The position numbers were made by a program, and so were the translations under genes. The notes below the pieces were generated by a model. The model was not told the origin of the DNA. It searched no databases and was given only the letters and a program-made list of their open reading frames with translations. From NCBI GenBank assembly GCA_020051845.1, contig JAGVQG010000042.1:1-41048 (forward strand): a stretch of DNA of 41,048 bases, given 5' to 3'. The first letter of the stretch is position 1; every line of letters begins with the position of its first letter. Source of the DNA: an archaeon (lineage in GTDB: Archaea > Nanobdellota > Nanobdellia > Woesearchaeales > ARS49). Positions 7,663 to 34,090 of the stretch are shown here, one piece after another.

Positions 7663-9516
7663 CTATTCCCATTCGGTCGTCCCGGGTGGTTTGGACGTGA
7701 GGTCGTACATCACGCGCGAGATCCCCGAAACCGTGCTTACCGTAGTGACGACATCATCAAGGCATTTCTCGGGGAACTCGACGCCGGGCTTTGCCGCTGT
7801 TCCTGTCATGAAATCGTTTGTTATGAACGGCCGGATGACGATCGACCTGTTCCCAGTGTTGCCGAAAGGCAAGGGCACTGATATCACAGGCACCTGGCTG
7901 AGGGTCTTCATAAGGCCATATTCAAGGAGTTTTTTGTTGACCAGATCATCGGCGATCTGCAACTGACCGACGCTTTCACGAGATAGGTATGTTTGCGTGA
8001 TGCCGTCGACAGTTGGCTCGTCTCCGAAGATTCGCACGACCCTGTTGACTGAGTGGAAGTGCTTGGGTATCTCCTTGGCCAGTTCAAAAAGTGTGGACCA
8101 ATCGCTGTTGCCGCTGAGGGCGACCGCGTAGCTGTAGCTCCTTCCGTCTCCCTGGACTCCGACTGTCTTGATCGGGAGAAGATGGGCCGGTACATCGCGA
8201 CAATAGTCCCTTATCGAGATGTTCAATTCCTTGAAATCTTCAGTCATGTAGGGTTTGTCGGCGCACAGCAACCGAACAGCCAACCCTGGTCCTGGGAATG
8301 GCTGTCTCCAGACGAATTCTTCGGGAAGCCCTAGGCTCTTGCCTAGCTGCCTCACCTCATCCTTGTGGAGGTCCTTGAGCGGCTCGATCACACGCCCCTC
8401 ATCGCGCAATTTCCTGACGAGATATGTGTCGTTGTGGTGCGTTTTGATGGTGTTCGCCTTCTTGCTTGCGAGCGTCGATGCGCTTTCTATGAGATCAGGA
8501 CGTAACGTGCCTTGCGCGAGGTACACTTGGGCAGGATCCAGATTCAATCTCTTGATCTCGCGCTCGACGACACGTATGAATTCGTCGCCGATTATGTTGC
8601 GCTTCTCCTCAGGATTCGTGGTCTGCATCAACGTCGGTGTCTGACGCCCCTTAATGGTCGTGGATGAGTTGTAGAAGTCCTCAGACGCGTCGACCACACG
8701 CAGGTCAAGTCCAAGACCGGATAATGCCGCCTTGACTTTCCTGCTCTCATCGAGACGCATGAAACCGTTGTCGACGTGGATCGCATGTATTCTCTTCGGC
8801 CCGATCGCCTTCATCAGTAGAGCCGCAAGGACCGTCGAATCCACCCCTCCGCTGACGAGCGCGAGCACTTGCTTGTCACCGACTTCCTCCTGTATGTACC
8901 TTATCGCCGCCGCCTCGCGGTTCTCCATGGTGTAATTGCCTGACAAGCCCGCGATTTTGTAGAGGAAATTATGAAGCATCTGTTTGCCGTGTTCTGTGCG
9001 GTCCACTTCAGGATGGAACTGCAGTCCGTAAAGTTTGTATGCTCTGTTGACTATTGCCGTGATGCTGCCGTTCGATCTTCCGACTTCCTCGAATCCTGGC
9101 GCGAGCGTGGTGACGCAATCACCGTGTGTCAGAAGCACGTCCTGCTGCTCGGCGAGACCGTCAAATAGCAGCACGGGTCTCACGCGTATCGTTTCTGTGC
9201 CATCCTCGCGCACCTCTGATTTTCCAACACCACCGCCGAACGCGTGGTTCATGAGTTGCATTCCATAGCATATGCCTAGCACAGGTATGCCCATCTTGAA
9301 GATGCGTGGATCGCATCGCGGAGCGGCAGGATCATAAACGCTTTCAGGCCCGCCGGATATTATTATCGCACGATAATCCAGAAGGCGTTCTGCTGGCGTG
9401 TCCATCGGCAGTATCTCTGATTCTACCTTCAATTCCCGCACCCTGCGGTCTATGCACTTGCCATACTGCGCCCCCGCATCTAGAATCGCGACCTTCTCAT
9501 TGGGCTTTTCCGTCAT
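7663..9516 (-). CDS. guaA: GMP synthase (glutamine-hydrolysing), single-chain
   Basis: 617 residues. It converts XMP, glutamine and ATP to GMP. The N-terminal class I amidotransferase has Cys83 in GICYGMQ and His168/Glu170 in FHPE; the ATP-pyrophosphatase has the P-loop SGGVDS (residues 222-227); the C-terminus ends PPGTTEWE as in other GuaA proteins. It is longer than the roughly 525 residues of common bacterial GuaA, with extra sequence in the C-terminal dimerisation region as in the long eukaryote-like form. Many archaea split the enzyme into two genes, so a fused long form suggests acquisition by transfer (inference). ATG 9516 is chosen because a BRE/TATA at 9539-9554 predicts transcription starting at about 9517. 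Confidence 0.95.
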
Positions 9517-9538
9517 AGCGAAGGTGGTTGACCATCGT

Positions 9539-9554
9539 CTTATATCGTTTTCGC
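9539..9554 (-). promoter_or_regulatory. BRE/TATA promoter of guaA
   Basis: The minus strand reads GCGAAAACGATATAAG: a purine-rich BRE followed by GATATAAG. The TATA centre is about 27 bases from ATG 9516, so the mRNA should be leaderless. Confidence 0.55.
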
Positions 9555-9622
9555 CACAGCACAATAACCGACGTGATTATCGCGGCGATGGCCGTGATTT
9601 ATCGTCTAATATACCCCAAAAG

Positions 9623-18727: not shown

Positions 18728-21700
18728 TCAAAACCCTGTGGCTGGGCCGACTCCGTTCCAGAAGCCGTCGCCGTTGCCTAATCCTGATGCAGGGCCGCCG
18801 CCGTTGTTGGGGCCGATGCCGTCCCAGAAGTTGTCGCCGTTGTGCAGGCCCATCTTGCCGTGCTTCACGACGTGCGACGCTCCGTTGGTCAGGTTGATCG
18901 CCGTGACCGTGTATGAGGCGGTCTCTGCGATGTTCTTCACCAGGTAGAGTATGTTGCCGATTATGCGCGACTTGATGACGTTCGGGCCGATCGTCTTCTG
19001 GAGGTCCTTGAGCGTCTGCAATTCCTGCTGTCCTGACTTGTTGACATAGGTCTTGCTTCCGCCGTTGTCGCTCCAGACGTCCATCAGGTCGCCGAGTACG
19101 CCACGGATGACCTTCTTGGTGTTGCCGTTGGCGTGGTTGTTGTCGCTCACGAGTCCTTCTGCGGCTGTCATGTTCCTGCCTATCTCGAAGAGCTCGCTCC
19201 AGTTCGCGAGGCCGTTGTTCCTGCTGAGCTGTGCGTACGAGCTGAAGAACAGGTCAAGGCCTATCTTGTTGGCGATGTAGCGATCAGGGTTCTCCCCGAT
19301 TATCGTCTTCAGCGCGTCCGAGTTGGACAGCTGCACATACGACTCAAGTGAGACCTCGTTGCCTGCGCGCAATTGCGCCGCTGTCGGCGCTGACGGGAAG
19401 GTCAATCCCCAAGTGAGGTTTGCGTTCCACGCGTCCGCGTCCCAGAAGGGCACGAAGCTCTTGAGGGCGTTGGCGAATTTGAGGAATCCGAGCATGACGC
19501 TCGAGTCCATCGCTTTCTGGTCGATGCCTTCCTCCTTGAGTATGCGCTCGCCTTCTGCCTTTGCGGCCTTCTCGAAGGCCTTCAGCTCTGCCGAGCAGTT
19601 CTTCTTGAGGAAGTCTTCCGCGACCTTGCGGACCTTCTTGCCTGACGCGCGTGTCGCGTCGTCCTGGCTTATCTGCGCGATGTATCCGAGGGCGAATGCC
19701 TGGAAAGCAGAGTCCTTTGCCCTGCCGAGCTCGCCGTTCTTGGCGTTCTCCTGCATCTCAATGATGTGGTTCCACGCGCCCTTCCTTCCCTGGTATCCTG
19801 TGAGGAAACTGCGGGCAAGGAAGTCCTCAATCATCTCGCGGGCATGGTCGTAGTTGTGTATCTTGCCCTTCAGACCCTTGAATGTCTGGTATGCTGTGAA
19901 CGGGTTCTGCACGACTTTGTCGAGAGGGCCGTACTTCCTGAGCACGTCGTCGACGACGAGCCTTTGCTCGAGGTCGTTGAGCACAGGCACTTTTCCGTCA
20001 GAACGGGTGCATTGAGGCGCGTCGCTGTACCTGTCTTTGGCGGCTGTCCTGTTGATCAGCGTCTTGTCTGCGTTGTACTTGGCGAAGTGCTGCTTGCGCC
20101 TGTCCTGCAGCTTCTCGTTGAGCTGTTCTGCCTTGTCCGTCTTGCCGGCCATCTGTGCTTCGTAGACTGCGAGCTCGAGCAGGATGTCTGCCTGGGCGCG
20201 GTCTCCGTGCGACGCGAATTGTGCGCGGTAGTCTGACTGCTTGTCGAGCTTGTCGATGAGCGTGTCAGTGTTCATGTTGGCGACGTCTTTGTTCTTGTCC
20301 TTGATGACAGAACGGTCGACCTTGACAGGTTCCACGTAAGGAATTGTCGTGGTCGTGACTGCGCGAAGGGCTTTCTCCTTGCGATCTGCGAGCTCGTACT
20401 TCTTGCCTTCCTTCGGAGTCTCGTAATTGATGGCTCCTTGGGGGTTGACGATCGGTCCGTTCGACGTCTTCTGAGGCGCGCGCCAGACCGGTTTGTCGTC
20501 GGTCTTTGGCTGCGCGGCAACGTTTGATTGCGTTGTTGATTGCGTCTGAACCGGCGTGCCGTTCTGTTGCTTGACAGCGACTTTCACGGCACCGTCATTG
20601 TTGCTGACGTATGCAGGGACGTTCTCTTTCTTGGTCTCTGATGCAACCGGCATTTCTTTTTTCGCCGGCGCTTCAGAACCGGAATTCAGCCAGTCCAAGA
20701 ACATCCAACTTGCGCCGACAACTGCGGCTCCGCCCACTGCACCGACGACGTATTTCCCGTTGCCGGAGTCTGCCTTGCCGTCCTGGGCAAGCCTGTCCTT
20801 GAGGTCCTTGACCTCGTTCCTGTGGCTGCCTTGTTCCTGGGCGAGTATCGCCGCAAGGGTCTTGGCGTCTGAGAGATTCTTTTCCGCCCGGGTCTGCTCA
20901 GCTGAAATCTGGGTCTGCGCCGTTTTGTAATCTGATGTGAGCTTCTCGTTCGACTTCTTGAGGCCGTCGAGCTCTTCCTGCGTCTTCTGAGGTATGACGA
21001 CAGGCGCGTTCTTTGCTGCGAGTTCCTTGTTCTTGATCTGCTGATCACGGGCTTCAAGAGCCTTGTCGCGATCCGCGAGTTCCTTGTCGCGATCTGCTAG
21101 CTGCTGGTCGCGTGCCGCGAGCTTCTGGTCAAGTTCACTCAATTCCGTGCTCTTCGCGTTGACCTTGACGAGTTCGGCTTCGTACAATCTCTTTGCTTCC
21201 TTTTCGGCGTCTGCCTTGACAGAGTCGAACTTCTTTTCAAGATCGGAATATCTCTTCTCGAATTGTTCATTGAGGCGTTGCTCGGCTGCCGCGACTTTCG
21301 CGTCTGCCTTGCCTTCGCCGATGAGTACGCCGACATATCCTGTCGCGCCTAGGGCTATCGCGGCCGCTGCCACGACTCCTACTGCACCCATCTTGACTTG
21401 CTTCGCTTTCTCGGCGACTGAGTTGTAAGCTGCCTGGTACCATGGCTGTTTTTCTGAGACGTAGGCAATGACCTTGCCGACTTGAGGCGTGGTCGATGGA
21501 GCGCCGACGACTTCGTCGAGGCTTCCCAAGGGCGCTTCACCGTCGGGTCCTATAATCATCTCATTGCCATCTGCAGGTAGGTCGTTCAAGCCTGCGGCTT
21601 CCAATCTTTTCTGGAAATCGAATTCGGGATCTGCATAGGCTTGCTCTATCGTTAGACGACCCGCATTGATGACCTCATTACGGGCTTGCTCTTCAGTGAG

Positions 21701-21997
21701 ACGGCCTGCGTTTGCGTAATCGCCTTGGTTTCCGCCGTATAATTTCATCGCTGCTTCGGTGAATTGCTGCCTTTTCTCGGCGGGGATCTGGTATGCGTCC
21801 ATGACACCGGAGATTCCATCAGGGCTCTCCTCGATCGCTTTGCGGAAGCCGGATCCTATCTCTGCGCCTGCAAGTGTTTCAAGTGTGGCTAGCGCTGCGT
21901 CCTTTTCATTGACGGCTGGCTGCTCCTTTTGATCGAGAACTTGTACGCCTTGATTGGACGCGTAACCTGGACTTGCCGACTCTTCCTTCGTTGTCAT
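18728..21997 (-). CDS. Large two-span coiled-coil envelope protein, family not recognised
   Basis: 1089 residues from ATG 21997 (GGGGG seven bases upstream; ATG 22018 is an alternative). There is no signal peptide. Order: an acidic N-terminal domain with a repeated NAGRLTxEQA unit; a helix at about 204-226 (VVAAAAIALGATGYVGVLIG); a coiled coil at about 233-408 with runs such as ADRDKELADRDKALEARDQQ; a second helix at about 415-435 (YVVGAVGGAAVVGASWMF); a Gln/Thr/Asn-rich linker; then about 530 residues of mostly helical sequence ending in two Gly-Asn-Trp units (NGDNFWDGIGP, NGDGFWNGVGP). With both helices used, both ends would be cytoplasmic and the coiled coil outside. I know no matching family. 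It heads the operon with the repeat protein and has a strong promoter. Confidence 0.75.
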   Translation of the reverse strand: MTTKEESASPGYASNQGVQVLDQKEQPAVNEKDAALATLETLAGAEIGSGFRKAIEESPDGISGVMDAYQIPAEKRQQFTEAAMKLYGGNQGDYANAGRLTEEQARNEVINAGRLTIEQAYADPEFDFQKRLEAAGLNDLPADGNEMIIGPDGEAPLGSLDEVVGAPSTTPQVGKVIAYVSEKQPWYQAAYNSVAEKAKQVKMGAVGVVAAAAIALGATGYVGVLIGEGKADAKVAAAEQRLNEQFEKRYSDLEKKFDSVKADAEKEAKRLYEAELVKVNAKSTELSELDQKLAARDQQLADRDKELADRDKALEARDQQIKNKELAAKNAPVVIPQKTQEELDGLKKSNEKLTSDYKTAQTQISAEQTRAEKNLSDAKTLAAILAQEQGSHRNEVKDLKDRLAQDGKADSGNGKYVVGAVGGAAVVGASWMFLDWLNSGSEAPAKKEMPVASETKKENVPAYVSNNDGAVKVAVKQQNGTPVQTQSTTQSNVAAQPKTDDKPVWRAPQKTSNGPIVNPQGAINYETPKEGKKYELADRKEKALRAVTTTTIPYVEPVKVDRSVIKDKNKDVANMNTDTLIDKLDKQSDYRAQFASHGDRAQADILLELAVYEAQMAGKTDKAEQLNEKLQDRRKQHFAKYNADKTLINRTAAKDRYSDAPQCTRSDGKVPVLNDLEQRLVVDDVLRKYGPLDKVVQNPFTAYQTFKGLKGKIHNYDHAREMIEDFLARSFLTGYQGRKGAWNHIIEMQENAKNGELGRAKDSAFQAFALGYIAQISQDDATRASGKKVRKVAEDFLKKNCSAELKAFEKAAKAEGERILKEEGIDQKAMDSSVMLGFLKFANALKSFVPFWDADAWNANLTWGLTFPSAPTAAQLRAGNEVSLESYVQLSNSDALKTIIGENPDRYIANKIGLDLFFSSYAQLSRNNGLANWSELFEIGRNMTAAEGLVSDNNHANGNTKKVIRGVLGDLMDVWSDNGGSKTYVNKSGQQELQTLKDLQKTIGPNVIKSRIIGNILYLVKNIAETASYTVTAINLTNGASHVVKHGKMGLHNGDNFWDGIGPNNGGGPASGLGNGDGFWNGVGPATGF
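18731..18850 (-). repeat. Duplicated Gly/Asn/Trp tail of the 1089-residue protein
   Basis: The last 40 residues contain two copies of GLxNGDxFWxGxGP about 22 residues apart. The two copies differ at the DNA level by several substitutions. Confidence 0.7.
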
Positions 21998-22043
21998 TTG
22001 TATTCCCCCTGTGGCCATTCAGCGATTTGTGTGATCGAGCATA

Positions 22044-22253: not shown

Positions 22254-23354
22254 ATGATCACGGTGATTGGTGCAGGGCCTGCTGGTGCGCAAGCGGCGTA
22301 CGCGCTTGCGAAGGCAGGGCACAAGGTCGAATTGTTCGAGGAGCACGCGGCGATAGGCGTGCCTGTCGCTTGCACTGGTCTTCTCACCAAGACGATCCAT
22401 GGATTATTGTCCAAGGATGAACTCGAAAGCGTCCTCGTCAACCAGCTCGACGCAGTGGATGTCGTCGCGCCAGGCGGTCACACTGTGAGGATCAAGACCC
22501 ATGAGTACGTCGTCGACAGGGCCGCCTTCGACAGGATGCTTGTGAGGAAAGCGATAGACGCAGGCGTTGTCCTTCGCACAAGCCACATCTTCACAGGGAA
22601 GAAAGGCAGCACCGTCTTCCTCAGTCATAAAGGAAAGACGGTCGAAAGAGAAATCGATTTCCTTGTGGGCGCGGACGGTCCGACAAGCCCTGTCGCGAAA
22701 TCTACAGGTATATACGGCAACCGTGAATTCTACGTCGGCCTGCAGGCGACGATGCGTGGCGGCTTTGACAAAAAAGTCTTCACGACCTGGTTCGGGGACG
22801 CGGCTCCTGATTTCTTCGCCTGGAGCGTGCCTGAGACGGATTCGCTCTCACGTGTGGGCGTCGCTTCGCAGACGAACACAAGGGCGCTTTTCGAATCTCT
22901 GACAAAACGCGTCGGTGGGATGATGGTCGCCAGACAAGCCGGCCCGATTCCTATCTTCAAACCAGGATTAGTCGCATCCTCACCAAAGCAAGGCGTCTTC
23001 CTCGTCGGCGATGCCGCCGCTCTTGTCAAGGCGACTACAGGCGGCGGCATCATCACAGGGATGCAATCCGCCGATATTCTTGCGGACTGCATCACCCGGG
23101 AAAAAGATTACGAGAAATCTTTGGCGCCTTTGCGCAGGGAGCTGTGGTTGCATCTCCTGATAAGGAAGACGCTCAATGGTTTCGGCCAGAAGGATTATGA
23201 CAAGCTCGTCGCGCTCATGGATGACAGGCGCGTGCAGGATTTGCTTGCCGAGAACCCGCGTGAGTATCCATCACGGTTCATCATCAGGCTTCTTGCGACG
23301 AAACCAGGGCTGTTGCGCTTCGCGCCGAAAGGGATCTCTGCCCTCATCCGATGA
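22254..23354 (+). CDS. Geranylgeranyl reductase family flavoprotein
   Basis: 366 residues. The N-terminal FAD-binding GAGPAGAQAAYALAKAG starts at residue 5, CTGLLT matches the Cys-x-Gly motif found near the flavin in this family, and LVGADGPTSPVAK and FLVGDAAALVKATTGGG are the two later FAD motifs. Family members saturate the isoprenoid chains of archaeal lipids or, in some archaea, isoprene units of dolichol phosphate. Its position next to a UbiA-type prenyltransferase and AglB favours a role on the glycan lipid carrier (inference), but general archaeol reduction is equally possible. The C-terminal helical region (from about 290) is shorter than in the longest family members. Confidence 0.88.
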   Translation: MITVIGAGPAGAQAAYALAKAGHKVELFEEHAAIGVPVACTGLLTKTIHGLLSKDELESVLVNQLDAVDVVAPGGHTVRIKTHEYVVDRAAFDRMLVRKAIDAGVVLRTSHIFTGKKGSTVFLSHKGKTVEREIDFLVGADGPTSPVAKSTGIYGNREFYVGLQATMRGGFDKKVFTTWFGDAAPDFFAWSVPETDSLSRVGVASQTNTRALFESLTKRVGGMMVARQAGPIPIFKPGLVASSPKQGVFLVGDAAALVKATTGGGIITGMQSADILADCITREKDYEKSLAPLRRELWLHLLIRKTLNGFGQKDYDKLVALMDDRRVQDLLAENPREYPSRFIIRLLATKPGLLRFAPKGISALIR

Positions 23355-23455: not shown

Positions 23456-24412
23456 TTATCCGACGGTGAGCCAGTTTCCGGCTGACGCAGGGATGAGATA
23501 AATCACGAGCAGTGTCAGCAGTCCCCACAACACTATGGAGGCAAGCATGCGTCCGTCCAACAACAGCAGATGCGGATGCCGTGCAGCCTTGTCTCCTTCA
23601 AGCGCGAGTGATAGATAGCGCATCACGGCATAAGAAGCGAAAGGTAATGTGAAGATGAGCATCCTATAGTTGTGCAGGAAAGAATAGAGCGCATAAGAGA
23701 TCAGCAGCACTGTGGCCGCAATGCTCATCAGCAAGCGCAGATTGTCCGATGTATAGCTGCGCAAAGATGATCTGTGACGGATGGCTCCGGCTCCCAACAA
23801 TCTCATCTCGGAATGACGTTTTCCGAATGAAAGCAGCAACGCAAGGAAGAAACCGCAGATGAGCAGCCATGGCGATATCGCGACAGATATCGCGAACGCT
23901 CCGACCGCGGCGCGAAGGACGAAATTGACGCCGAGCATCATCACGTCGACCAAGGGTTCGTTCTTCAGCCAGAGCGTGTAGGCTGTCGTGATCGCGACTA
24001 TGGCCAGCCCGCCCACGAATGGCGCCATGCCGATGATCGATAACAACACCAGACCCGGCACGCCCAATGACACTGTCATGAACGCGGCGACTCCAACCGA
24101 CAATTTTCCAGCCGCTATAGGCCTTTGGCTTTTCTCAGGATTGAGTCTGTCGCTCTGCGCATCCACCATATCATTAAGGCAATAACAGCTAGATGACACG
24201 AGACAGAGAGCGATGAAAGAAAGCACAACAGCAGGCAAAAGACCGACATCAGTCAGCCCGCCGACGAATATCAACGGCACGAGGACCATCAGGTTCTTGT
24301 ACCACTGATATGGTCTGAGAAGATGATAGAACGCAAGAAGAACGTGCCCCATACCCATGATGTCTTTCTTTCCAGACTCCATTATTAATGTTATATGTGC
24401 GTGAGAAAACAT
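23456..24412 (-). CDS. UbiA-family prenyltransferase, DPPR-synthase-like
   Basis: 318 residues, about nine membrane helices. LLRPYQWYKNLMVLVPLIF, then NDMVDAQSDRLNPEKSQRPI (Asp-rich motif NDxxDxxxD) and the later TLWLKNEP region match the branch of UbiA that contains decaprenyl-phosphate phosphoribosyltransferase, which attaches phosphoribose to a polyprenyl phosphate. This would make a pentose donor for surface glycans; other UbiA reactions cannot be excluded. ATG 24412 lies about 26 bases from the TATA octamer 24435-24442 shared with aglB, so leaderless translation is plausible; ATG 24382 or 24358 is closer to the conserved region and could be the true start. Confidence 0.8.
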   Translation of the reverse strand: MFSHAHITLIMESGKKDIMGMGHVLLAFYHLLRPYQWYKNLMVLVPLIFVGGLTDVGLLPAVVLSFIALCLVSSSCYCLNDMVDAQSDRLNPEKSQRPIAAGKLSVGVAAFMTVSLGVPGLVLLSIIGMAPFVGGLAIVAITTAYTLWLKNEPLVDVMMLGVNFVLRAAVGAFAISVAISPWLLICGFFLALLLSFGKRHSEMRLLGAGAIRHRSSLRSYTSDNLRLLMSIAATVLLISYALYSFLHNYRMLIFTLPFASYAVMRYLSLALEGDKAARHPHLLLLDGRMLASIVLWGLLTLLVIYLIPASAGNWLTVG

Positions 24413-24442: not shown

Positions 24443-24477
24443 CGGTGTGCCGTTTCCGCGACTCTAGAGGGGTTTAT

Positions 24478-27400
24478 GTGAGCGACAAAGGATTCGATTT
24501 GAGCGGCATGTTCGGAAAGTCTGCTTCTAATCAGGATATCAAGAAAGAAGAGAAGAAAGTCGAACAGCTCCGTGAGGAGAAGAAGATCCTCCAGGATGAG
24601 GTCCAGGAGAAGAAGGAATCATTCTTAGGCGTCGAATCCGACGAAAAGCGCGTCGAGCGCCAATTGGATAGGGAAGAAAGCAGGCTCGACTCGATGAAAG
24701 GCGGTTTCTCGCTCAAGGGTATTTTCGAATCGAAGGGATCAGGTCGTTCAGAGGAATCTCCTATTGATCTTTCTAGGATTTGGCGTTGGATCGTCAAGAA
24801 CAAGATGTTGTTCCTCATCCTTATCCCGTTGCTTTTGAGCATCTATGTGCGCACAGGCACCAAGGACATGCCCATAGTCACTGACTGGGCGGCCAACAGC
24901 GTCAACAGTTTCATCAGGAGCGACATCGAGACGGTCATCAACGCGCAATATCCCAATCTTCCTGCTGACAGCAAGACCAAGCTCATCGACCAGCAGTTCG
25001 CAAAAGCGACCAAAGACGCCACGTACACTATCCAGACAGGCCAGTACCGTGGCCAGACGATGAACATCGCCAATGAGGTCCAGAACAACGCGGCTCAGCT
25101 CAAGCAGTTCTGGCAGTATGACCTCAACGGCAAGCAAGTCACATACATGCCAGATATAGATCCGTATTTCTACCTTAGATACGCCCAAAATCTGCTCACT
25201 AAAAGAATGTTGGGCGATGTCGCTACTCCATCAGGTGGATCCTTGGACAACCACATGAAAGCACCGATAGGCGAAGGCGTGGATTACGAAACGGTGGGCG
25301 TAATTCCTTATGTAATCGCTTGGAATCACAAACTGATGTCTTTGTTCGAAGGTGGAATCGACATTATGCAGACTGCTGCAATGGTACCAGTAATCATCAT
25401 GGCATTGGCAACTATTCCCGCTTTCCTATTAGGTAGACGTCTGGCAGGGAATATGGGTGGGTTCATGGTCGCAACAATGGTTGCCATAAATGGAGCTGCA
25501 CTAAGCAGGACATTATGGGGTCATCCTGACACCGACGGATTCCAGCTTCTGTTTCCCATGACAGTCATGTGGCTAACTGTGGAATCCATTATCGCCAAGA
25601 AAATGCTCAGGAAGATCATCTTTGCCACGATAGCGGGTGCAACTACTGCGGTCTATTCCATTGCCTGGGTAGGGTGGTGGCATCTTTTTGATTTCACACT
25701 GGCAGCCTTAGGCGCATACGGCCTGTGGACAATTGTAAGAAAACACGAGGATGGATTGAAGGCTATCGACCCACGCAATAATATTGAATGGCGTGATGCT
25801 CTACTCTTCGGATTAGTGTTTTTGGTTGTCTGTGGCACGTTCATGATAGGATTAAGCACCTTCGATAGATTCACTAATGCAGCCTCATTACCTTTCGGAT
25901 TCTCATCGGACTTCAAGGTAGCGGCAAGACCCAGTCTTTGGCCAAATGTTTACACAACAGTCGCTGAACTCAATCCAGCATCATTCGCCTCAGCAATCCA
26001 CTCTGTCGGAGGCAACATACTGCTCGCAATAGCAATCCTAGGCATAGTTTTGTTACTTTTGCAGCGCGAGCAACAAACCGCTTCGGTTTTCACCGCAATA
26101 ATCATCACATTATGGCTCATAGGCACTATCTACGCATCAAGCAAAGGGATTAGATTCACATTACTCATCGTGCCTGCTGTCTCGGCAGGTTTTGGTATAG
26201 GAATCGGCCTTTTGCACAAGCATCTTGTAAGATTCTCACGTGAAGGCCTAAGATTGCCTAATTTCGTAACAACTACTGCCTTCCTGATTGCAGTATTCGT
26301 TTTATTATTATGGGCACCTATCTCCTCTGCCCGTGAACAAGGCGCCCAAGATGTGCCAATAATGAATGATGCATGGTGGACCGCCCTTACCAAGATCAAG
26401 GACAACTCAAAGACTGATGCAGTCATCAATTCGTGGTGGGACTTCGGACATCACTTCAAGTATGTCGCCGACCGCGCAGTCACTGCCGATGGTGCTTCCC
26501 AAAATAGTCCACCTGCACACTGGATAGGCCTTGTCCTTATGACTGATGATGAGGAATTCGCAACTAATGTACTTCGAATGCTCGATTGCGGGAACAAAAG
26601 AAGCATCGAGATGTTGGATGAGTTCACGCCGAATACCGCGATCAGCGTCAAGCTGATGAAAGAGGCCATTATGATGCCAAAAAATCAGGCAAGAACCTTA
26701 TTCATCGAGAATGGCGTTCCAAAGGACAAAGTCGATGAATTGATCAAGCTCACGCATTGCGTCCCTCCAGAGAACTTCTTCATAACGTCCGATGACATGG
26801 TCGGTAAATCAGGCGTGTGGGGTCATTTCGGAAGCTGGGATTTCATGCGCGCCTACTTGCATATCAATCACCACAGCTCCACAAGGGATGTTGCTGTGGC
26901 TGACCTGGTCAAGACTTTCAACATGAGCGAGAAGAACGCCGAGAACCTCTACTTCGACGATCAGGGACTCACTGATGAGAACTCTGCCAACCAGTGGATA
27001 GCACCCTGGCCTAGCTATGTAAGCGGCCTCGCAGGATGCTCTGTTCGTGGCCCAATCATGCAATGTGGCAATGGCCTGCAGCTCAACTCGACCAACGGTG
27101 AAGCCACTGTACAGGTGCAGGGCGGTACTGTGCGGCCGAAATCCATCGTCTACATCAATGAGACAGGAGACTTTGTCGAGCGCAACTACAACGACAGCGG
27201 CGTTGATATCAGCGCCGCGATAATTCCCGCCAACGGCGGCTTCCAAAGCATACTGATGAGCCCGCAGCTTGCCAGTAGCATGTTCACGCGGCTGTTCTTC
27301 TTCAGGGGCCATGGCTTGAGCCATTTCAAGTTGTTCGATGAACAGCGCCAGCTCACGGGCGGTAATATCCTAACTTGGAAGATCGACTGGGAAGGTAAAG

Positions 27401-27621
27401 AACCAAACGAAGTTTTCACTTCGGCCGAGTCTGAACCCGAGATACAGAAGCCTAAAGAAGGCGACTTGACGAACTCGACGGTGGTCACAAACAACACATC
27501 CACCCAAAACAAGTCCGCGATCACGAACAAAACAACAACCGGGATCGCCACAAACAAAACATTGGACAATGTGACCACCGAGAATGCCACAGCGAACACG
27601 ACCGATGCCAGCGCAGCCTGA
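24478..27621 (+). CDS. aglB: Oligosaccharyltransferase AglB/STT3 with coiled-coil N-terminus and sequon-rich tail
   Basis: 1047 residues from GTG 24478, with GAGGGG five bases upstream. It transfers lipid-linked glycan to Asn of Asn-X-Ser/Thr. Motifs: first Asp-x-Asp DIDPYFYLRYAQN (about 226), second GHPDTDGF (about 347), the acceptor-binding WWDFG (about 652; usually WWDYG) and SDDMVGKSGVWGHFGSWDF (about 770), the region of the DK motif. About 12-13 membrane helices lie between residues 100 and 630. Two oddities: a charged coiled-coil extension of about 95 residues before the first helix, and a final Thr/Asn-rich tail with nine sequons. It heads a plus-strand operon of four genes and shares a TATA octamer with the divergent prenyltransferase gene. 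Confidence 0.95.
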   Translation: MSDKGFDLSGMFGKSASNQDIKKEEKKVEQLREEKKILQDEVQEKKESFLGVESDEKRVERQLDREESRLDSMKGGFSLKGIFESKGSGRSEESPIDLSRIWRWIVKNKMLFLILIPLLLSIYVRTGTKDMPIVTDWAANSVNSFIRSDIETVINAQYPNLPADSKTKLIDQQFAKATKDATYTIQTGQYRGQTMNIANEVQNNAAQLKQFWQYDLNGKQVTYMPDIDPYFYLRYAQNLLTKRMLGDVATPSGGSLDNHMKAPIGEGVDYETVGVIPYVIAWNHKLMSLFEGGIDIMQTAAMVPVIIMALATIPAFLLGRRLAGNMGGFMVATMVAINGAALSRTLWGHPDTDGFQLLFPMTVMWLTVESIIAKKMLRKIIFATIAGATTAVYSIAWVGWWHLFDFTLAALGAYGLWTIVRKHEDGLKAIDPRNNIEWRDALLFGLVFLVVCGTFMIGLSTFDRFTNAASLPFGFSSDFKVAARPSLWPNVYTTVAELNPASFASAIHSVGGNILLAIAILGIVLLLLQREQQTASVFTAIIITLWLIGTIYASSKGIRFTLLIVPAVSAGFGIGIGLLHKHLVRFSREGLRLPNFVTTTAFLIAVFVLLLWAPISSAREQGAQDVPIMNDAWWTALTKIKDNSKTDAVINSWWDFGHHFKYVADRAVTADGASQNSPPAHWIGLVLMTDDEEFATNVLRMLDCGNKRSIEMLDEFTPNTAISVKLMKEAIMMPKNQARTLFIENGVPKDKVDELIKLTHCVPPENFFITSDDMVGKSGVWGHFGSWDFMRAYLHINHHSSTRDVAVADLVKTFNMSEKNAENLYFDDQGLTDENSANQWIAPWPSYVSGLAGCSVRGPIMQCGNGLQLNSTNGEATVQVQGGTVRPKSIVYINETGDFVERNYNDSGVDISAAIIPANGGFQSILMSPQLASSMFTRLFFFRGHGLSHFKLFDEQRQLTGGNILTWKIDWEGKEPNEVFTSAESEPEIQKPKEGDLTNSTVVTNNTSTQNKSAITNKTTTGIATNKTLDNVTTENATANTTDASAA

Positions 27622-28549
27622 TATCTCAGTAGTCATCCCTGCGTTCAATGAGGCCCAGAACGTCAGGCCGATGTATGATGCCCTTACTCGCGTCCTTAAA
27701 CCGAGTGGATTGTCTTACGAATTGATCTGGATCGATGACGGTAGCCGTGACTCGACATGGAAAGAGGTCGAGAATCTGCACATGTCCGACAAAAGGGTCA
27801 TTGGTGTCAGGTTCCGCAGGAATTTCAAGAAAGCGGCTGCTTTGATGGCTGGTTTTAGGGAGGCTAAAGGCTCGCTTGTTTTGACCATGGATGCTGATCT
27901 GCAGGATGAACCTGCCGAGATTCCGAGGCTGATTCAAGCCATGCGTGAAAGGAATCTCGACCTCGTGGTCGGTTGGAAAAGGAAACGAAAGGATCCCTGG
28001 CACAAGCTTGTTTCATCTTGGTCTTTCAACCTTCTCGTAAGAAAGTTCACAGGCATTACATTGCACGATTCTGACTGTAATTTCCGTCTGATGAAAAGGG
28101 ACGTTGTCGACCATCTCGATCTGTATGGCGGGCTTTTCAGGTACATCCCGTCCATTGCACACGCTAACGGTTTCCGTGTGGGTGAGATTCCTGTGGTCCA
28201 CAATCCTCGCAGGTTCGGTAAGAGCAAGTACGGCCTCAAGCGTCTCGTGACAGGACCGTTCGATCTTTTGACGATAAAGTTCTTGCTCGATTACAAGAGC
28301 ACACCTTTGCACTTCTTCGGATTCATAGGCCTCGGATCAGCGGGTCTTGGCGCTTTGATATCTGCATATCTGGTGGTTCAGAAGATAATAGATGGCACTT
28401 TACTCGCGAACAGGCCGCTCTTGCTTCTGGCCATCCTTCTGATAATTATCGGCGTGCAGTTCATGTCCTTCGGACTTCTTGCTGAATTGATTCAATCCGA
28501 GGGACGCCGTCGATCCACGCCTTACGTGGTGCAGACGGTGCTACGATGA
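27605..28549 (+). CDS. Dolichol-phosphate mannosyltransferase-like GT2 with two C-terminal helices
   Basis: 314 residues from ATG 27605, which overlaps the aglB end by 17 bases. The GT-A domain shows SVVIPAFNEAQNV, WIDDGSRDSTW, the metal site MDADLQD (about 95) and NFRLMKRDVV. It is followed by two transmembrane helices (about 232-255, 268-292), as in GtrB/DPM1-type enzymes that load a sugar from a nucleotide donor onto a polyprenyl phosphate on the cytoplasmic side. The GT39 enzyme at 32399-34090 is a possible user of the product. The sugar is not determined by sequence. An earlier in-frame ATG at 27584 would lie deeper in aglB. Confidence 0.9.
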   Translation: MPAQPDISVVIPAFNEAQNVRPMYDALTRVLKPSGLSYELIWIDDGSRDSTWKEVENLHMSDKRVIGVRFRRNFKKAAALMAGFREAKGSLVLTMDADLQDEPAEIPRLIQAMRERNLDLVVGWKRKRKDPWHKLVSSWSFNLLVRKFTGITLHDSDCNFRLMKRDVVDHLDLYGGLFRYIPSIAHANGFRVGEIPVVHNPRRFGKSKYGLKRLVTGPFDLLTIKFLLDYKSTPLHFFGFIGLGSAGLGALISAYLVVQKIIDGTLLANRPLLLLAILLIIIGVQFMSFGLLAELIQSEGRRRSTPYVVQTVLR

Positions 28550-29904
28550 GGTCTTTCTCGAACGTCATGCGGAGCCGCAAGAGCGTGCGAAGCTTCGAGA
28601 AAACCGAAGTCAAGGACGCCCTGATCGAGAAAGTCGTCGAGGCTGCGACCTTCGCGCCCACGAGCTGCAACCAGCAATTGTGGCAATTTGTCGTCGTGAA
28701 AGACTCGACGACAAAGCAAAAGCTGATCGAAGAGGCATCTTCATCGACTCTTATCAGCCGCGCTCCGGCGATGATAATCATCTCCTATGACGGCTGGAGT
28801 AAGAAGGAGGCTTTGCAGGCAGGCGCAATGGCAGTACAGAACATGCTGCTTGCCGCGACCGACTTGGGCCTCGGCGTGTTGGCGATGAACAGCTACGGCG
28901 ACGACAAGAAAGTCAAGAGAATAGTCGGCCTGCCTAGAAATCAAGTGATCTGCTGCTTTGTTCTTCTGGGATATCCTGACAAGCGCGCAGAAGCGGCGCC
29001 TATTGTGCCGAGAAAGTCAGTCAAAGAAGTTATGCATAAAGAACATTTCAGCGGCCACATCATGCCACGATTGTCGTACAATCCTGATAGGTGGACTCTG
29101 AAGGACATCATTAACCACCAAAGATACTACTGCCGCAAGACCTTCCTCGGCAAGGAGATGGACATAATGCATTCTCTCGAGAGGAATCTTGTCGCTCGCG
29201 AACTTGCTTCCCTTAAAGGCAAGGTTCTCGACATCCTCTCCTATGATGGCGCATATCTGAGGGAGTTCCCTGCCGTTGCACTCACCACAGCCGACCTATG
29301 TCAGGAGACTGCGGAATACTCAAAGGCGGCTGCCAGGCTCACAGTCAAGGTAGCGTCGAACATGAAGCACATCATCATCGAAGATGGCGACGTTGCCAAT
29401 GCCGCCAAAGACTTCGACGCAGCCACTCTAATCTACAAATTGGAGCGTCTGCCGACATCATTCCGCAAGGACATGATCAATATGGCGTTCAGGCACGTGA
29501 AGCCAGGCGGTGAGATCATCGTGATATCCCGCCGTGACAATGCGCTGATGCTGCTTTTCCTGTTTGTCATAAGGACTTTGTTCGGCGATGACGTGCGCAA
29601 GACAGGCATCTACTCTTTTTTCGGCGGCTACAAGCCGATCAACAAGCGTAAGACATTGCGTCTGTTACGCTCATGCGGATGGACGAATGTCAGCGCGAAG
29701 TCATACTTCTTCATGCCCGCTTTCTTCGACCAGGCATTGCAGATGTTGCTTCAATACATCGGAAGCGGCGGTTCAAGCTATCTGCACAGGGTGAGACGGG
29801 AGAACATCCTCACCAAGACGCTTTCGCTGTTGCTCGCGATGCAGGGATCGCGCCGTTGTCTGTTCGGAAGTGTCGTCGTGATCCGCGGACGGAGAAAACA
29901 ATGA
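28546..29904 (+). CDS. Nitroreductase-methyltransferase fusion protein
   Basis: 452 residues, starting with an ATGA overlap on the GT2 stop. Residues 1 to about 165 are a nitroreductase-family FMN domain: RSRKSVRSF (FMN phosphate Arg-Ser-Arg), APTSCNQQLWQFVVV, and MAVQNMLLAATDLGLG. Residues about 200-440 look like a class I SAM methyltransferase: GKVLDILSYDGAYL at about 225 in the place of motif I, a later helix-strand HVKPGGEIIVISRR, and a C-terminal extension like Methyltransf_11 proteins. The motif I glycines are partly lost (VLDILSYDG instead of VLDxGxGxG), so SAM binding is uncertain. The fusion inside a glycosylation operon is unusual; it could redox-modify and methylate a sugar or polyprenyl group. 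Continuity looks genuine: there is no stop or frameshift at the joint. Confidence 0.8.
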   Translation: MRSFSNVMRSRKSVRSFEKTEVKDALIEKVVEAATFAPTSCNQQLWQFVVVKDSTTKQKLIEEASSSTLISRAPAMIIISYDGWSKKEALQAGAMAVQNMLLAATDLGLGVLAMNSYGDDKKVKRIVGLPRNQVICCFVLLGYPDKRAEAAPIVPRKSVKEVMHKEHFSGHIMPRLSYNPDRWTLKDIINHQRYYCRKTFLGKEMDIMHSLERNLVARELASLKGKVLDILSYDGAYLREFPAVALTTADLCQETAEYSKAAARLTVKVASNMKHIIIEDGDVANAAKDFDAATLIYKLERLPTSFRKDMINMAFRHVKPGGEIIVISRRDNALMLLFLFVIRTLFGDDVRKTGIYSFFGGYKPINKRKTLRLLRSCGWTNVSAKSYFFMPAFFDQALQMLLQYIGSGGSSYLHRVRRENILTKTLSLLLAMQGSRRCLFGSVVVIRGRRKQ

Positions 29905-31460
29905 AGGACGACACCTACCTGCTTTCTTTGATCGACGCCATGCCGAGGATCATCAACCAGATAGACCGCAACCCGGCGTCGCCCACATTCGGATGCTGCG
30001 ACAGGGATTTTTGGCATTACAAGATCGTCGACTTCGCCTGCGCAAGGAAGCAGGAAGCGGCATTGACTCTCGCGCTCGTCGCATCCATCAAGCACCCAAA
30101 GAATCCATACTATGATAACGTGATGATTCGCGGTCTTGCGGATGCCGCGATCCGTTTCTGGTCATCGATCCAAGCGAATGATGGCTCGTTCTCTGAATGG
30201 TATCCCAACGAGCACAGTTTTGTCGCCACCGCATTCTCGTTGTACGCTATCACCGAGGCGTTGATCGTGTCAAGACGATCCCCTTCACCCAAAGTGCGCT
30301 ACGCAATACTGGATGCGGCGCACTTCCTTGCGAATATCGTTGAAAGAAGGGTCCAGAACCAGGAGTCAGGCGCGATAGCCGCGCTCCACAACGCATCAGT
30401 GGTCTTGCAAGAACCTATCTTCGCCGCCATTGCAAAGGATCGCATGGCCTCACTCGTGCGTCAACAGCATCCTGAGGGATGGTTCAAGGAATATGGCGGG
30501 CCTGATATTGGATACCTTTCTTTGACAATGGACTACGTCGGTAAATACCATGACAAGACAGGTGACAAGAACGCAGAAGCACTGATAAGAAGAGCTGCCA
30601 GCTTCATGCGCTGGTTCATGCATCCTGACGGTTCTATCGGCGGCGTCTACACGAGCAGGAACACTGAATATCTGATACCCAGCGCGTTCGAGCATGTCAG
30701 GGATGAGAATACCGTCAGACTATCGTCTTTCTGCCACAATGGTGTCAGGTCAGGGATTCTTCCCTCCTGCCGCACGCTCACTGACAGGTACTTGATGTAT
30801 AACGGCTACACCTATGCGCAGGCGTTCTTGGCGCAGCGTTCCGCGTCAGTGAAGCCTTCTTTTGCGGATCCATTCGATAAACGTTTCCCTGGTTGCGGTT
30901 TGCGTGTCGTTGACAAAAAGTCATATTTCATCGTCATTAACGAGAAGAAGGGTGGCGCGTTCTTCTTCAATGGCAAGCGCACAGGCACTGTCGTGCAAGA
31001 TTCCGGTGTGGCTGTGAGTATTGGCAGGACAGCGTTCCATGCAGGCTACCTTGGATCAGCGTCATCTAGCGATGACGGTTCTATTACTGTCACAGGATCA
31101 CTCCAACCAATCAAAGGACAGACCCTATCTCCTATAAAAAACGCCGCTTTGAGGATTTTCCAGTCCACATTTGGTATAAGTGGGTTATTGAGTAAGACTG
31201 TCAAGGAGAGGCTGCGTGACAGGGTGATTACCCCGACAAATCGTTCTCACTCGAAGTTTTCCCGATCAATAATATTAGGCGATGATTCTGTCACCGTTTC
31301 CGACGCCGTTGAAGGAGTGCCCGACGGTTCGACACTTATCGTCGGAGCGAAGCAATCTACGCAATATGTGCCAAGCGCAAGGTTATTTGTGCCGAATGAC
31401 GCTCTCGCGCAACCGCCTTTATTCTTGAAGCGATCCGATTTTAGGCGTGTGCTTCGTTGA
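29901..31460 (+). CDS. Alpha/alpha-toroid-like protein, possible polysaccharide lyase or glycosidase relative
   Basis: 519 residues, starting with an ATGA overlap on the fusion gene. Its N-terminal 330 residues are helical with DGSFSEWYPNEHSFVATAFS, a pattern I recall from proteins annotated heparinase-like or toroid cyclase-like. Further blocks are PEGWFKEYGGPDIGYLSLTMDY and HPDGSIGGVYTSRNTEYLIP. The last 170 residues have a beta-rich look (KSYFIVINEKKGGAFFF), as in the C-terminal sandwich of heparinase II/III-type lyases. It has no signal peptide. The target could be a glycan intermediate. Its last 42 bases overlap the convergent gene at 31419. A start at 29673 would run through the upstream gene and is not credible. 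Confidence 0.6.
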   Translation: MKDDTYLLSLIDAMPRIINQIDRNPASPTFGCCDRDFWHYKIVDFACARKQEAALTLALVASIKHPKNPYYDNVMIRGLADAAIRFWSSIQANDGSFSEWYPNEHSFVATAFSLYAITEALIVSRRSPSPKVRYAILDAAHFLANIVERRVQNQESGAIAALHNASVVLQEPIFAAIAKDRMASLVRQQHPEGWFKEYGGPDIGYLSLTMDYVGKYHDKTGDKNAEALIRRAASFMRWFMHPDGSIGGVYTSRNTEYLIPSAFEHVRDENTVRLSSFCHNGVRSGILPSCRTLTDRYLMYNGYTYAQAFLAQRSASVKPSFADPFDKRFPGCGLRVVDKKSYFIVINEKKGGAFFFNGKRTGTVVQDSGVAVSIGRTAFHAGYLGSASSSDDGSITVTGSLQPIKGQTLSPIKNAALRIFQSTFGISGLLSKTVKERLRDRVITPTNRSHSKFSRSIILGDDSVTVSDAVEGVPDGSTLIVGAKQSTQYVPSARLFVPNDALAQPPLFLKRSDFRRVLR

Positions 31461-32402
31461 ACGAAGCAATATCACGCCTGCCAATCCTACGATTATTGCG
31501 GAAAGCAATTGCATTATGTGCACGGAGAATGCGCTCACAATCGCGATGTCATGACTTATCCCTAGTACTATGAACGCTCCTGCCCAACTCAGTTCTGTCG
31601 TGCCGAATCCTGCCAGGCCCGAGATCGGCAATATCGTGACCAAACGGTACAATGATGTCCCAAGTGCGACTGCCGCGAACGGCACATCATAGCCGAAGCC
31701 TACCATCAAAAGATATGTCTGCACATAGGCGAACAGCCAGACAAGCAGGCTTGTGACGATTATCATCGAGTAAGTGCGCGCTCCGCGTATGCTTTCAATC
31801 GCTGCAGCGACCTCACACATCTTGGCCAACGACCATTGCACGACGCGGATGTGTGCTATGCCCAGGATTGATGCAACTCTCCTGCCGAATGCCTCGATCT
31901 TGTGCCGCATTAAGACGAACATAACCAGGAGCAGGAATATCAACAGAAGCGCCGCTCCCATTATCATAAGCAATGTGCGGAAAGATGAAGGTGCGTCTCT
32001 GACGAAGAATAGCGCGACAAGCGTCAGTATGAAAACAGCGGCGATATCGAACACGCGACAGACTATCAGAACTGCCGCGGAATGACCTATGTTAATTCCT
32101 TGACGTCTTACCATGTAGATATAACTCATCTCGCCGAATATTCCTGGAAGTAGGTTCAGTAAGCATGTATGAACGAAGGTTATTGGAATCATTACTTTAG
32201 CCGGAACTTTGAGTAGACGCTGGAATCGTATCGCGCGCATGACCACGCTGAGGAGATAGATCAACAGGCTAGCGACCAAGAACAAGGGGTTTATCGCCAG
32301 CACGGTCTTGGACACTTCTGATGCGTCGACGTATCGTAGAAGCCACCAGACAAGAACCACAGTCAGCAATAGCGCTAGTGCCAGACGGAAAGAACGTTTC
32401 AT
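31419..32402 (-). CDS. LPG-synthase-type membrane protein (UPF0104/AglD-like flippase family)
   Basis: 327 residues with about eight membrane helices. The pattern VVMRAIRFQRLL near the start, then NLLPGIFGEMSYIYMVRRQGI, CRVFDIAAVF and ISGLAGFGTTELSWAGAF is that of the lysylphosphatidylglycerol synthase transmembrane family. In archaea such domains are the C-terminal part of AglD and are suggested to move polyprenyl-phosphate sugars across the membrane. It starts with an ATGA overlap on the GT39 gene, so the two form an operon and may act on the same lipid-linked sugar. The 3' end overlaps the convergent toroid gene. Confidence 0.8.
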   Translation of the reverse strand: MKRSFRLALALLLTVVLVWWLLRYVDASEVSKTVLAINPLFLVASLLIYLLSVVMRAIRFQRLLKVPAKVMIPITFVHTCLLNLLPGIFGEMSYIYMVRRQGINIGHSAAVLIVCRVFDIAAVFILTLVALFFVRDAPSSFRTLLMIMGAALLLIFLLLVMFVLMRHKIEAFGRRVASILGIAHIRVVQWSLAKMCEVAAAIESIRGARTYSMIIVTSLLVWLFAYVQTYLLMVGFGYDVPFAAVALGTSLYRLVTILPISGLAGFGTTELSWAGAFIVLGISHDIAIVSAFSVHIMQLLSAIIVGLAGVILLRSTKHTPKIGSLQE

Positions 32403-34090
32403 GGTTCGATGTTTATGTATTCAAGCTTGACCGGGCCGCTCGTCAGTTCGTAGTTCTTGCTGCGCGGACTTTTTCCTGCTAGCATGGTGTTTATGTCGTC
32501 TACACTGAAATTCCCGCCTTTGCGGAGGAGCATGTAGACCGGTGCGGGTTGCCCTCGGTTCACGAAGCCGATCTGGACAAGGTGATAATTCTGTGATATG
32601 TGATCCTTGATCGCGCTGCGCTCAGGGTCAGAGAATATGTCAAAATTCCATTGGTAAAGGAATAACCAACTGGCGTTCCACTTGTTTTCATAGAACCGGT
32701 AGTCTTCCACAGTTCCTGGAAGTGACATACCTTTGATATCACCGTGCCATAGAATGCCGTATGCCTGGTGGCTGCTCCTGATAAGCCTGTCACCTGGCTG
32801 TTTGTGCTGTTTGATATAGTCACCGGCTACGTCAAGACCGAAGAACTGTGTATCGAACTGCCTGTCCTTCGCCTCCATCGACGAGAAATAAAGAGTGCTT
32901 GAACCAAGACCACTTACTGCGTATGAGAACACCGGGACTGGAACCAAGAACAGCGCGACCATCACCAATGCTTTCGAGCCAGGGAATCGCAGGAAGCTGC
33001 CGATCGTGTTGCCTGCCACAGTGATGAATAGTGCCATGAAGATTATGAAGACTGACGCCAATGGGAATTGGTGATAGCTGTGACCGCGCAAAGATTCTGA
33101 CACGAGTATTGGCAATAACAACGAGCTCGCGCAGTAAGCGACCATGAACCATCTTGTTCTCTTCTCAAGTTTCTTCCACATGAGCGCGAAGACAACTATG
33201 CCCAATACCGCGAAAAGCACTCCGACGAGAGTATAATTATCCGCAAGATACGGCTTCACGGCAGCCATCGTCTCAGGCTCGAAAAGCGCGGCTATCCTTA
33301 TCTTGTCCTCTCCCTGCGGCAAGCCGCCGAATACCGAGACTATGTACCTGCCAGAGTACCACCACCAAGCAGGCGATAGCAAGACCAGGACTCCTGACGC
33401 GGCAAGCGTCTTCATCCTGACCTTCCACTCCTTGAGTCTTGACCAGGGGAATATGAAGATGAATGGTATGAAACAGATGCCATACGTGTATTTGGTGACT
33501 ATCGCAAGCGTGGTGAACAAAGACGCGAGTACCAGGTCGTGCCATTTGTCATTGTCGATCCAACGGAAGAAGAAAATCCATGCCGCGAGCATGAACACGA
33601 AGCCGAACGGCATCTGGTCAACGTTATGGGAGAAGAATACGAAGAGCGGGCTTATCGTGGTCAAGCCTGCCGCGACAAGCGCCATATCATCACGGCCGAA
33701 TAGCTTTCGTATGAAGAAGAACATCAGGGGTATCGCGAGCAGGCTGAAGAGTATGACTGGCAAGCGCGCAGCCCATAATTCCAATCCGAATATCTTGAAC
33801 ATGACTGCCGCGGCTATCGCGCTCACCGGGAAGAAGTCGCTATGGATGCCATCCACATTCTCATTCTTTGCAGGATAGTCATACTCAGGCACGAAGAATC
33901 CATGCGCAAAGAAACCATCCCTATCGAAATTCCTCGCGGCGGTGACATACCTTGCTTCCTTCCAGTTGTGGTAGCCTATCGACGGATAATCGGCATGGTA
34001 GAACCGAAGATATGCGCCGAACACGACGAGTGCGAGCAGGATCACCCACACTAATTTCTTCGGATTGTTCAGCTTGACAGAATCATCCAT
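32399..34090 (-). CDS. GT39/GT83 family glycosyltransferase (polyprenyl-phosphate-sugar dependent)
   Basis: 563 residues with about 10-11 helices in the N-terminal two-thirds and a soluble C-terminal domain. The first outside loop has YHNWKEARYVTAARNF, where an acidic residue is the catalytic position in PMT/ArnT-type enzymes. IHSDFFPVSAI, FSHNVDQMPF and the WWWYSG segment are also typical. The enzyme would take a sugar from a polyprenyl phosphate on the outer face and add it to a protein or glycan. It probably uses the product of the GT2 enzyme (27605). GGGTGGT lies eight bases before ATG 34090, with a TATA box at 34127-34135. It is cotranscribed with the LPG-synthase-type gene. Confidence 0.85.
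   Translation of the reverse strand: MDDSVKLNNPKKLVWVILLALVVFGAYLRFYHADYPSIGYHNWKEARYVTAARNFDRDGFFAHGFFVPEYDYPAKNENVDGIHSDFFPVSAIAAAVMFKIFGLELWAARLPVILFSLLAIPLMFFFIRKLFGRDDMALVAAGLTTISPLFVFFSHNVDQMPFGFVFMLAAWIFFFRWIDNDKWHDLVLASLFTTLAIVTKYTYGICFIPFIFIFPWSRLKEWKVRMKTLAASGVLVLLSPAWWWYSGRYIVSVFGGLPQGEDKIRIAALFEPETMAAVKPYLADNYTLVGVLFAVLGIVVFALMWKKLEKRTRWFMVAYCASSLLLPILVSESLRGHSYHQFPLASVFIIFMALFITVAGNTIGSFLRFPGSKALVMVALFLVPVPVFSYAVSGLGSSTLYFSSMEAKDRQFDTQFFGLDVAGDYIKQHKQPGDRLIRSSHQAYGILWHGDIKGMSLPGTVEDYRFYENKWNASWLFLYQWNFDIFSDPERSAIKDHISQNYHLVQIGFVNRGQPAPVYMLLRKGGNFSVDDINTMLAGKSPRSKNYELTSGPVKLEYINIEP

Follow-up and report, generated by a model that had tools for sequence, protein, structure and literature searches.

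What does a nitroreductase joined in one frame to a methyltransferase-like domain do among the glycosyltransferase genes of an uncultured archaeon? The question is raised by a gene of the window, i.e. the whole stretch of 41,048 nucleotides of Woesearchaeales DNA that was analysed here, in which this gene lies downstream of aglB. An earlier note on this DNA had described the gene as a fusion inside a protein-glycosylation operon.

Gene organisation of the locus

The genes surrounding the fusion, in the order of their positions in the window, are as follows:

24445..27621, + strand: AglB / STT3 oligosaccharyltransferase (PF02516, 3e-32)
27584..28549, + strand: GT2, ArnC/polyprenyl-phosphate glycosyltransferase-like (PF00535, 5.9e-32; NF007986, 1.8e-53, below the equivalog cut-off)
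28546..29904, + strand: whole fusion gene including the stop codon, 452 aa
29901..31460, + strand: toroid protein, alpha/alpha toroid plus beta-sandwich with a polysaccharide-lyase-like fold (AlphaFold2 model and Foldseek)
31419..32402, - strand: LPG_synthase_TM family membrane protein (PF03706, 6.1e-34)
32399..34090, - strand: GT-C (PMT_2) glycosyltransferase (PF13231, 2.8e-19)

The fusion is encoded by a single open frame and shares an ATGA overlap with each of its neighbours, at positions 28546-28549 for the GT2/fusion junction and 29901-29904 for the fusion/toroid junction. The toroid gene thus starts at the ATG in position 29901, the mechanical list of open reading frames giving 29673. 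Both the continuity of the frame and its translational coupling to the GT2 and toroid genes, as proposed in the earlier note, were confirmed, the former by the full-length, stop-free frames of 8 other genomes and the latter by the overlap at each junction.

Directly upstream of aglB lie a geranylgeranyl-reductase-family gene (22254-23354, + strand; 173 vs 158.8 bits) and a UbiA-family gene (23456-24412, - strand), closest to decaprenyl-phosphate phosphoribosyltransferase with 188 bits for a cut-off of 234. A step involving lipid-linked ribose or arabinose would, in an archaeon, merit a look. Further away, a GMP synthase-like frame (7663-9564, - strand) encodes 633 aa, the usual length of GMP synthases being about 520 aa, and a long stretch between residues 305 and 573 lies outside its main Pfam matches. 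Finally, a 1096-aa protein without Pfam match (18728-22018, - strand) has a low-complexity, coiled-coil-like middle part and adjoins putative surface proteins.

Distribution of the fusion

Relatives were searched for in the archaeal phylum of the window, the phylum of Methanoperedens, phages, plasmids and IMG/VR, together with one pattern scan of genome contigs. The same full-length fusion was recovered in 8 further genomes, yielding 9 core genomes from two phyla. Six of these carriers belong to Woesearchaeota or the same class (G003/L021, G196/L022, G010/L024, G226/L055, G325/L056 and G053/L057) and two are Methanoperedens relatives, namely Methanoperedens sp. BLZ2 (L023) and a member of its family (G921/L097). 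The identity of the core fusions to the window protein was 34-50 % where measured. Four more divergent fusions (L058-L061) have the whole length of the second half in common, over 254 aligned columns (E 6e-23).

Within the order, the fusion was detected in 6 out of 353 genomes. The second half was never found unfused in these 353 genomes at E < 1e-12, apart from one weak match in G246 (a 261-aa frame matching columns 38-173, E 7.5e-14). The patchiness of this distribution suggests horizontal transfer.

A viral or phage origin was rejected, two IMG/VR scans having returned no relative and the phage records matching the NTR (nitroreductase) half only. Similarly, plasmid matches extend over no more than about half of the fusion protein, mainly its NTR part, and no plasmid record matches the second half.

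The nitroreductase half

28546..29040, + strand: nitroreductase (FMN) domain, residues ~1-165 (PF00881, 4.6e-25; PDB matches by sequence and fold; conserved motifs)

The identification of a nitroreductase domain in the earlier note was upheld by sequence, motifs and modelled fold. Residues ~7-165 match the Pfam Nitroreductase family with 89.2 bits for a cut-off of 23.5, and the nearest solved relatives in a PDB sequence search are 4dn2, 3e10 and 1nox, in agreement with the fold search. When the whole AlphaFold2 model was submitted to Foldseek, the best 50 matches were all members of the NTR superfamily, with target-normalised TM-scores of 0.45 to 0.88 and the full NTR fold. The RxSxR motif (residues 11-15), N42 and R156 are conserved, and R11, S13, R15, N42 and R156 are invariant in the five-member alignment A1. 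We take these residues to be the FMN contacts of nitroreductases, i.e. the RxSxR motif, the Asn and the C-terminal Arg.

A tree of 52 NTR domains was built with a quick method. The 13 fused domains, 2 unfused ones from toroid loci and one from G170 form a single group (SH-aLRT 98), separate from the 36 other archaeal NTRs. The two unfused members (L099, 13821-14465, - strand; L100, 2059-2700, - strand) are both encoded with a toroid protein and a GT2, the one of L100 adjoining the toroid gene. Since fused and unfused NTRs of toroid loci form one clade, they are, to judge from this tree, a distinct glycan-locus NTR lineage, fused in part.

Some other loci deserve mention. The L099 locus also contains two radical SAM genes, one of them with a B12-binding domain. 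An NTR with an extended N-terminus (L035/L112, 330-1187, - strand) groups with the fusion clade in the tree, and its short contig also carries a GT2-like gene. Two nitroreductase domains, possibly tandem copies, are found in the same short locus (L048 and L053).

The second half and its motif I loop

29071..29901, + strand: class I methyltransferase-fold domain with non-canonical motif I, residues ~176-452 (hhalign, AlphaFold2 strand order, PDB profile matches)
29227..29250, + strand: motif I region LDILSYDG, residues 228-235, with [S/T]YDG in place of the canonical GxGxG (alignments A2 and A6)

Taken alone, the window sequence gives sub-threshold matches for the second half (Methyltransf_25, E 0.034 and 0.016 in two Pfam searches) and reaches none of the gathering cut-offs of Methyltransf_25 (16.4 vs 27 bits), Methyltransf_23 (16.7 vs 27) and Methyltransf_11 (14.3 vs 21.2). 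The nine core second halves were then compared using hhalign with eight canonical methyltransferases, most of them encoded near a toroid gene in other genomes. The two profiles align with a probability of 96.3 % (E 1.5e-9), VLDILSYDG being paired with LLEVGCGNG, and PDB profile matches of the second half to methyltransferases reach 1.1e-5. In the AlphaFold2 model of the fusion (pLDDT 88.2, pTM 0.84), the second half contains seven strands in the order of class I methyltransferases (226-230, 245-250, 273-279, 290-296, 318-330, 379-387 and 443-450). The fold was judged from profiles and strand order because the best 50 fold matches of the whole model were all NTRs. The methyltransferase-like assignment made in the earlier note is thus retained, the profile comparison having placed the second half in a methyltransferase fold. 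The fusion of a nitroreductase to a methyltransferase fold is a real, conserved two-domain protein.

The canonical GxGxG loop is absent from 12 out of 12 aligned fusions. Core members read LDxx[S/T]YDG instead, with D229, Y233, D234 and G235 invariant in 9 out of 9, and the divergent fusions read LGYDG, LGFAG, DISG or DVSG. The end of strand 2 carries a D in the window and five other core sequences, and an N in L023 and L024. The mean pairwise identity of the second half is 42 %, compared with 47 % for the NTR half, and 41 of its columns are invariant. Among its invariant charged residues are R197, K198, D206, E212, D229, D234, K298, E300, R301, R329, R351, H414 and R415.

In class I enzymes, the C-terminal strand edges form the cofactor and substrate binding side. 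Within the Rossmann core, 9 of the 12 invariant residues are located there (p 0.007), which corresponds to 9 out of 45 positions as against 3 out of 74 elsewhere; on the opposite edges the count is 1 out of 42. The motif had been called degenerate, which is right in that the loop is non-canonical in every aligned fusion. It is better described as remodelled: as far as the alignments tell, the loop is replaced rather than randomly decayed, since all core members keep [S/T]YDG, conservation differs little between the two halves and the invariant residues of the second one cluster on the active-site face. Given this clustering and a conservation close to that of the NTR half, the second domain most likely has a working pocket.

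Conserved partners of the fusion

In all 9 core loci, no more than a few genes separate the fusion from a toroid homologue and a GT2; in L022, there are two genes between the fusion and the toroid gene. The toroid protein occurs in 20 of the 353 genomes of the order, and the 6 fusion genomes are all among these 20 (hypergeometric P 1.5e-8), with both genes in the same locus. aglB adjoins the cassette in 3 of the 9 core loci only, i.e. the window, L024 and L055. The placement downstream of aglB emphasised in the earlier note therefore holds for the window and is not a general link: "N-glycosylation operon" is a correct label here without applying to all loci, the constant partners being the toroid protein and the GT2.

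The AlphaFold2 model of the toroid protein (pLDDT 80.2, pTM 0.84) matches chondroitin AC lyase 1rw9 in Foldseek (E 7.9e-9, query-normalised TM-score 0.56), as well as PL33 and xanthan lyase; its fold is that of chondroitin AC, hyaluronate and xanthan lyases. No signal peptide or export signal was seen at its N-terminus on inspection by eye. The modelled lyase fold hints at uronate substrates. We found no support for such substrates in the genomes: toroid genomes do not have a UDP-sugar dehydrogenase significantly more often than the others (16 out of 20 vs 239 out of 333, p 0.61), and none was detected in the fusion carrier G010.

The LPG_synthase_TM family protein of the window is possibly a lipid-linked sugar flippase, and a similar gene lies near the toroid gene in L023, L097 and L104. 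Homologues of the GT-C (PMT_2) gene are present in L024 and L055. On a Phyllobacterium megaplasmid (L098, 10961-15796), a GT2, a toroid protein and further genes follow each other in a row without the fusion; part of the cassette therefore exists in bacteria too.

Proposed function and alternatives

We tentatively favour, from the sequences and models described above, the reading of the fusion as a cytoplasmic glycan-tailoring enzyme whose NTR half reduces a sugar or lipid-linked sugar intermediate held by the remodelled pocket of the methyltransferase fold; this would still fall somewhat short of an even chance. The ArnC-like GT2, the fusion and the lyase-fold toroid protein would together form a cassette for cytoplasmic glycan tailoring. 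The NTR half would bind FMN and reduce by two electrons a sugar or a polyprenyl-phosphate-linked sugar on the cytoplasmic side, before transfer of the glycan (by AglB where present). The second half would keep the substrate in its pocket, perhaps together with a nucleotide-like ligand such as SAM, and would serve for substrate holding or non-methyl chemistry rather than as an ordinary methyltransferase. Reduction is favoured as the direction of the NTR chemistry solely because the carriers are presumed anaerobes. Homology does not fix the direction, since members of the NTR superfamily can be oxidases (TyzC, PMC10404671).

A bolder version of the tailoring enzyme, which we consider quite improbable, would be a new enzyme class in which the FMN reductase and a [S/T]YDG pocket carrying out a non-methyl reaction jointly make a reduced sugar unseen in archaeal surface glycans. 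That reaction might, for instance, transfer a group from SAM or handle a sugar bound to a nucleotide or polyprenyl.

The best surviving alternative, although rather unlikely, is a bifunctional enzyme: the NTR would reduce, and the second half would bind SAM through its variant loop and methylate a sugar hydroxyl or carboxylate in the manner of AglP, which methylates in haloarchaeal N-glycans. The relatedness to class I methyltransferases in fold and profile speaks for it, as do the acid after strand 1 (D229), invariant in the core, and the D or N retained where strand 2 ends. Moreover, at least six toroid loci without the fusion encode a canonical methyltransferase with an intact GxGxG-type motif no more than about 2.3 kb away from the toroid gene, as if one had replaced the other; this would fit a fused domain that takes the place of a tailoring methyltransferase. 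However, no aligned fusion has the GxGxG loop, and the L097 locus of the Methanoperedens family carries the fusion and a canonical methyltransferase side by side.

The supply of SAM bears on the same alternative. In the window genome (G000, 96.6 % complete), neither the bacterial nor the archaeal family of SAM synthetase was recognised. The archaeal type was not found in ten other DPANN carriers and is present in both Methanoperedens relatives, the bacterial type having been looked for in the window genome only. These points count against methylation, although carriers without their own SAM synthetase could possibly import SAM. The suggestion of the earlier note that the fusion could reduce and methylate a sugar or isoprenoid intermediate thus remains a guess, of which methylation is the weaker half.

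Less likely again is a second half that acts as a non-catalytic docking or dimerisation module, placing the NTR next to the GT2 and the toroid protein. The absence of the canonical SAM loop would be expected from such a module, and the unfused NTRs of the same clade do stand beside toroid and GT2 genes without any second half (L099, L100). The invariant charged residues nevertheless argue for a working pocket, those of the Rossmann core clustering on the catalytic face.

That the NTR would act on an isoprenoid carrier (a dolichol-type phosphate) instead of a sugar appears very unlikely. The geranylgeranyl-reductase-family and UbiA genes just upstream in the window would fit this, and lipid-like molecules are known as substrates of NTR homologues (PMC10404671). 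Among the compared loci, however, a geranylgeranyl-reductase homologue was found in two only (the window and L024) and UbiA in the window only, while the GT2 and toroid genes are constant. Saturation of dolichol is, besides, already attributed to geranylgeranyl reductases. Finally, an assembly error or a chance read-through of two genes, for which nothing speaks except that most sequences come from MAGs, can be dismissed, the same junction being present across independent assemblies, in all 9 core fusions and in the 4 divergent ones, and the fusion gene being flanked by ATGA overlaps on both sides.

Comparison with known systems

Both folds, and fusions of NTRs such as the peroxiredoxin-nitroreductase 4eo3, are already known; no description of their pairing in glycan loci was found in the open literature searched. 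The statement of the earlier note that no role in N-glycosylation is described for such a fusion holds for these mostly open-access papers. Likewise, no paper linking the nitroreductase, methyltransferase-like and toroid parts was found there, which within this scope is weak evidence.

The NTR half resembles the minimal members (~165 aa) of the nitroreductase superfamily (PF00881), such as 4dn2, 3e10 and 8cqt, in its sequence score above cut-off, full fold and FMN-contact motifs. It differs from them in reading NQQLW where the usual motif is NxQPW, in its C-terminal fusion to a methyltransferase fold and in belonging to a separate glycan-locus clade. The second half has in common with class I SAM-dependent methyltransferases (Methyltransf_11/23/25, UbiE/UbiG-like) the order of the seven strands, profile kinship, the acid that closes strand 1 and a PGG-like segment before strand 5. 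It differs in lacking GxGxG, in the [S/T]YDG fixed in the core and, for the window protein, in scores below the Pfam cut-offs.

The window GT2 resembles ArnC of the ArnC/ArnT lipid-linked sugar modification, and a PMT_2 GT-C gene is close by; unlike ArnC it is archaeal and falls far under the equivalog cut-off (181.6 vs 529 bits). No NTR, methyltransferase-like or toroid gene is known from the Arn operon.

TyzC and other oxidases of the NTR superfamily share with the fusion an NTR-fold enzyme encoded in a gene cluster, in their case with a lipid product; TyzC is a stand-alone flavin-dependent oxidase that builds a lipid product by O2-dependent desaturation, without link to glycans (PMC10404671). 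A precedent for the second half is RquA of rhodoquinone biosynthesis, a class I methyltransferase-fold enzyme in which the canonical SAM motifs are disrupted and which still uses SAM, for a non-methyl chemistry, amino transfer (PMC9814641). No specific homology of RquA to the fusion was seen, its NCBIfam profile NF038261 matching residues 270-330 of the window protein weakly (E 4.5e-4) and far below cut-off (20 vs 175 bits), and RquA differs in acting on ubiquinone and in not being fused to a nitroreductase.

Very little is known of cell-surface glycan chemistry in uncultured archaea, Woesearchaeota among them. The conserved gene trio, which includes a flavin enzyme not expected there, suggests that sugars are modified in a way for which no description was found in the open literature, and it offers a definite target for expression. 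With its fixed [S/T]YDG motif, the second half joins the few methyltransferase folds that lack the canonical cofactor loop and keep a conserved active-site face.
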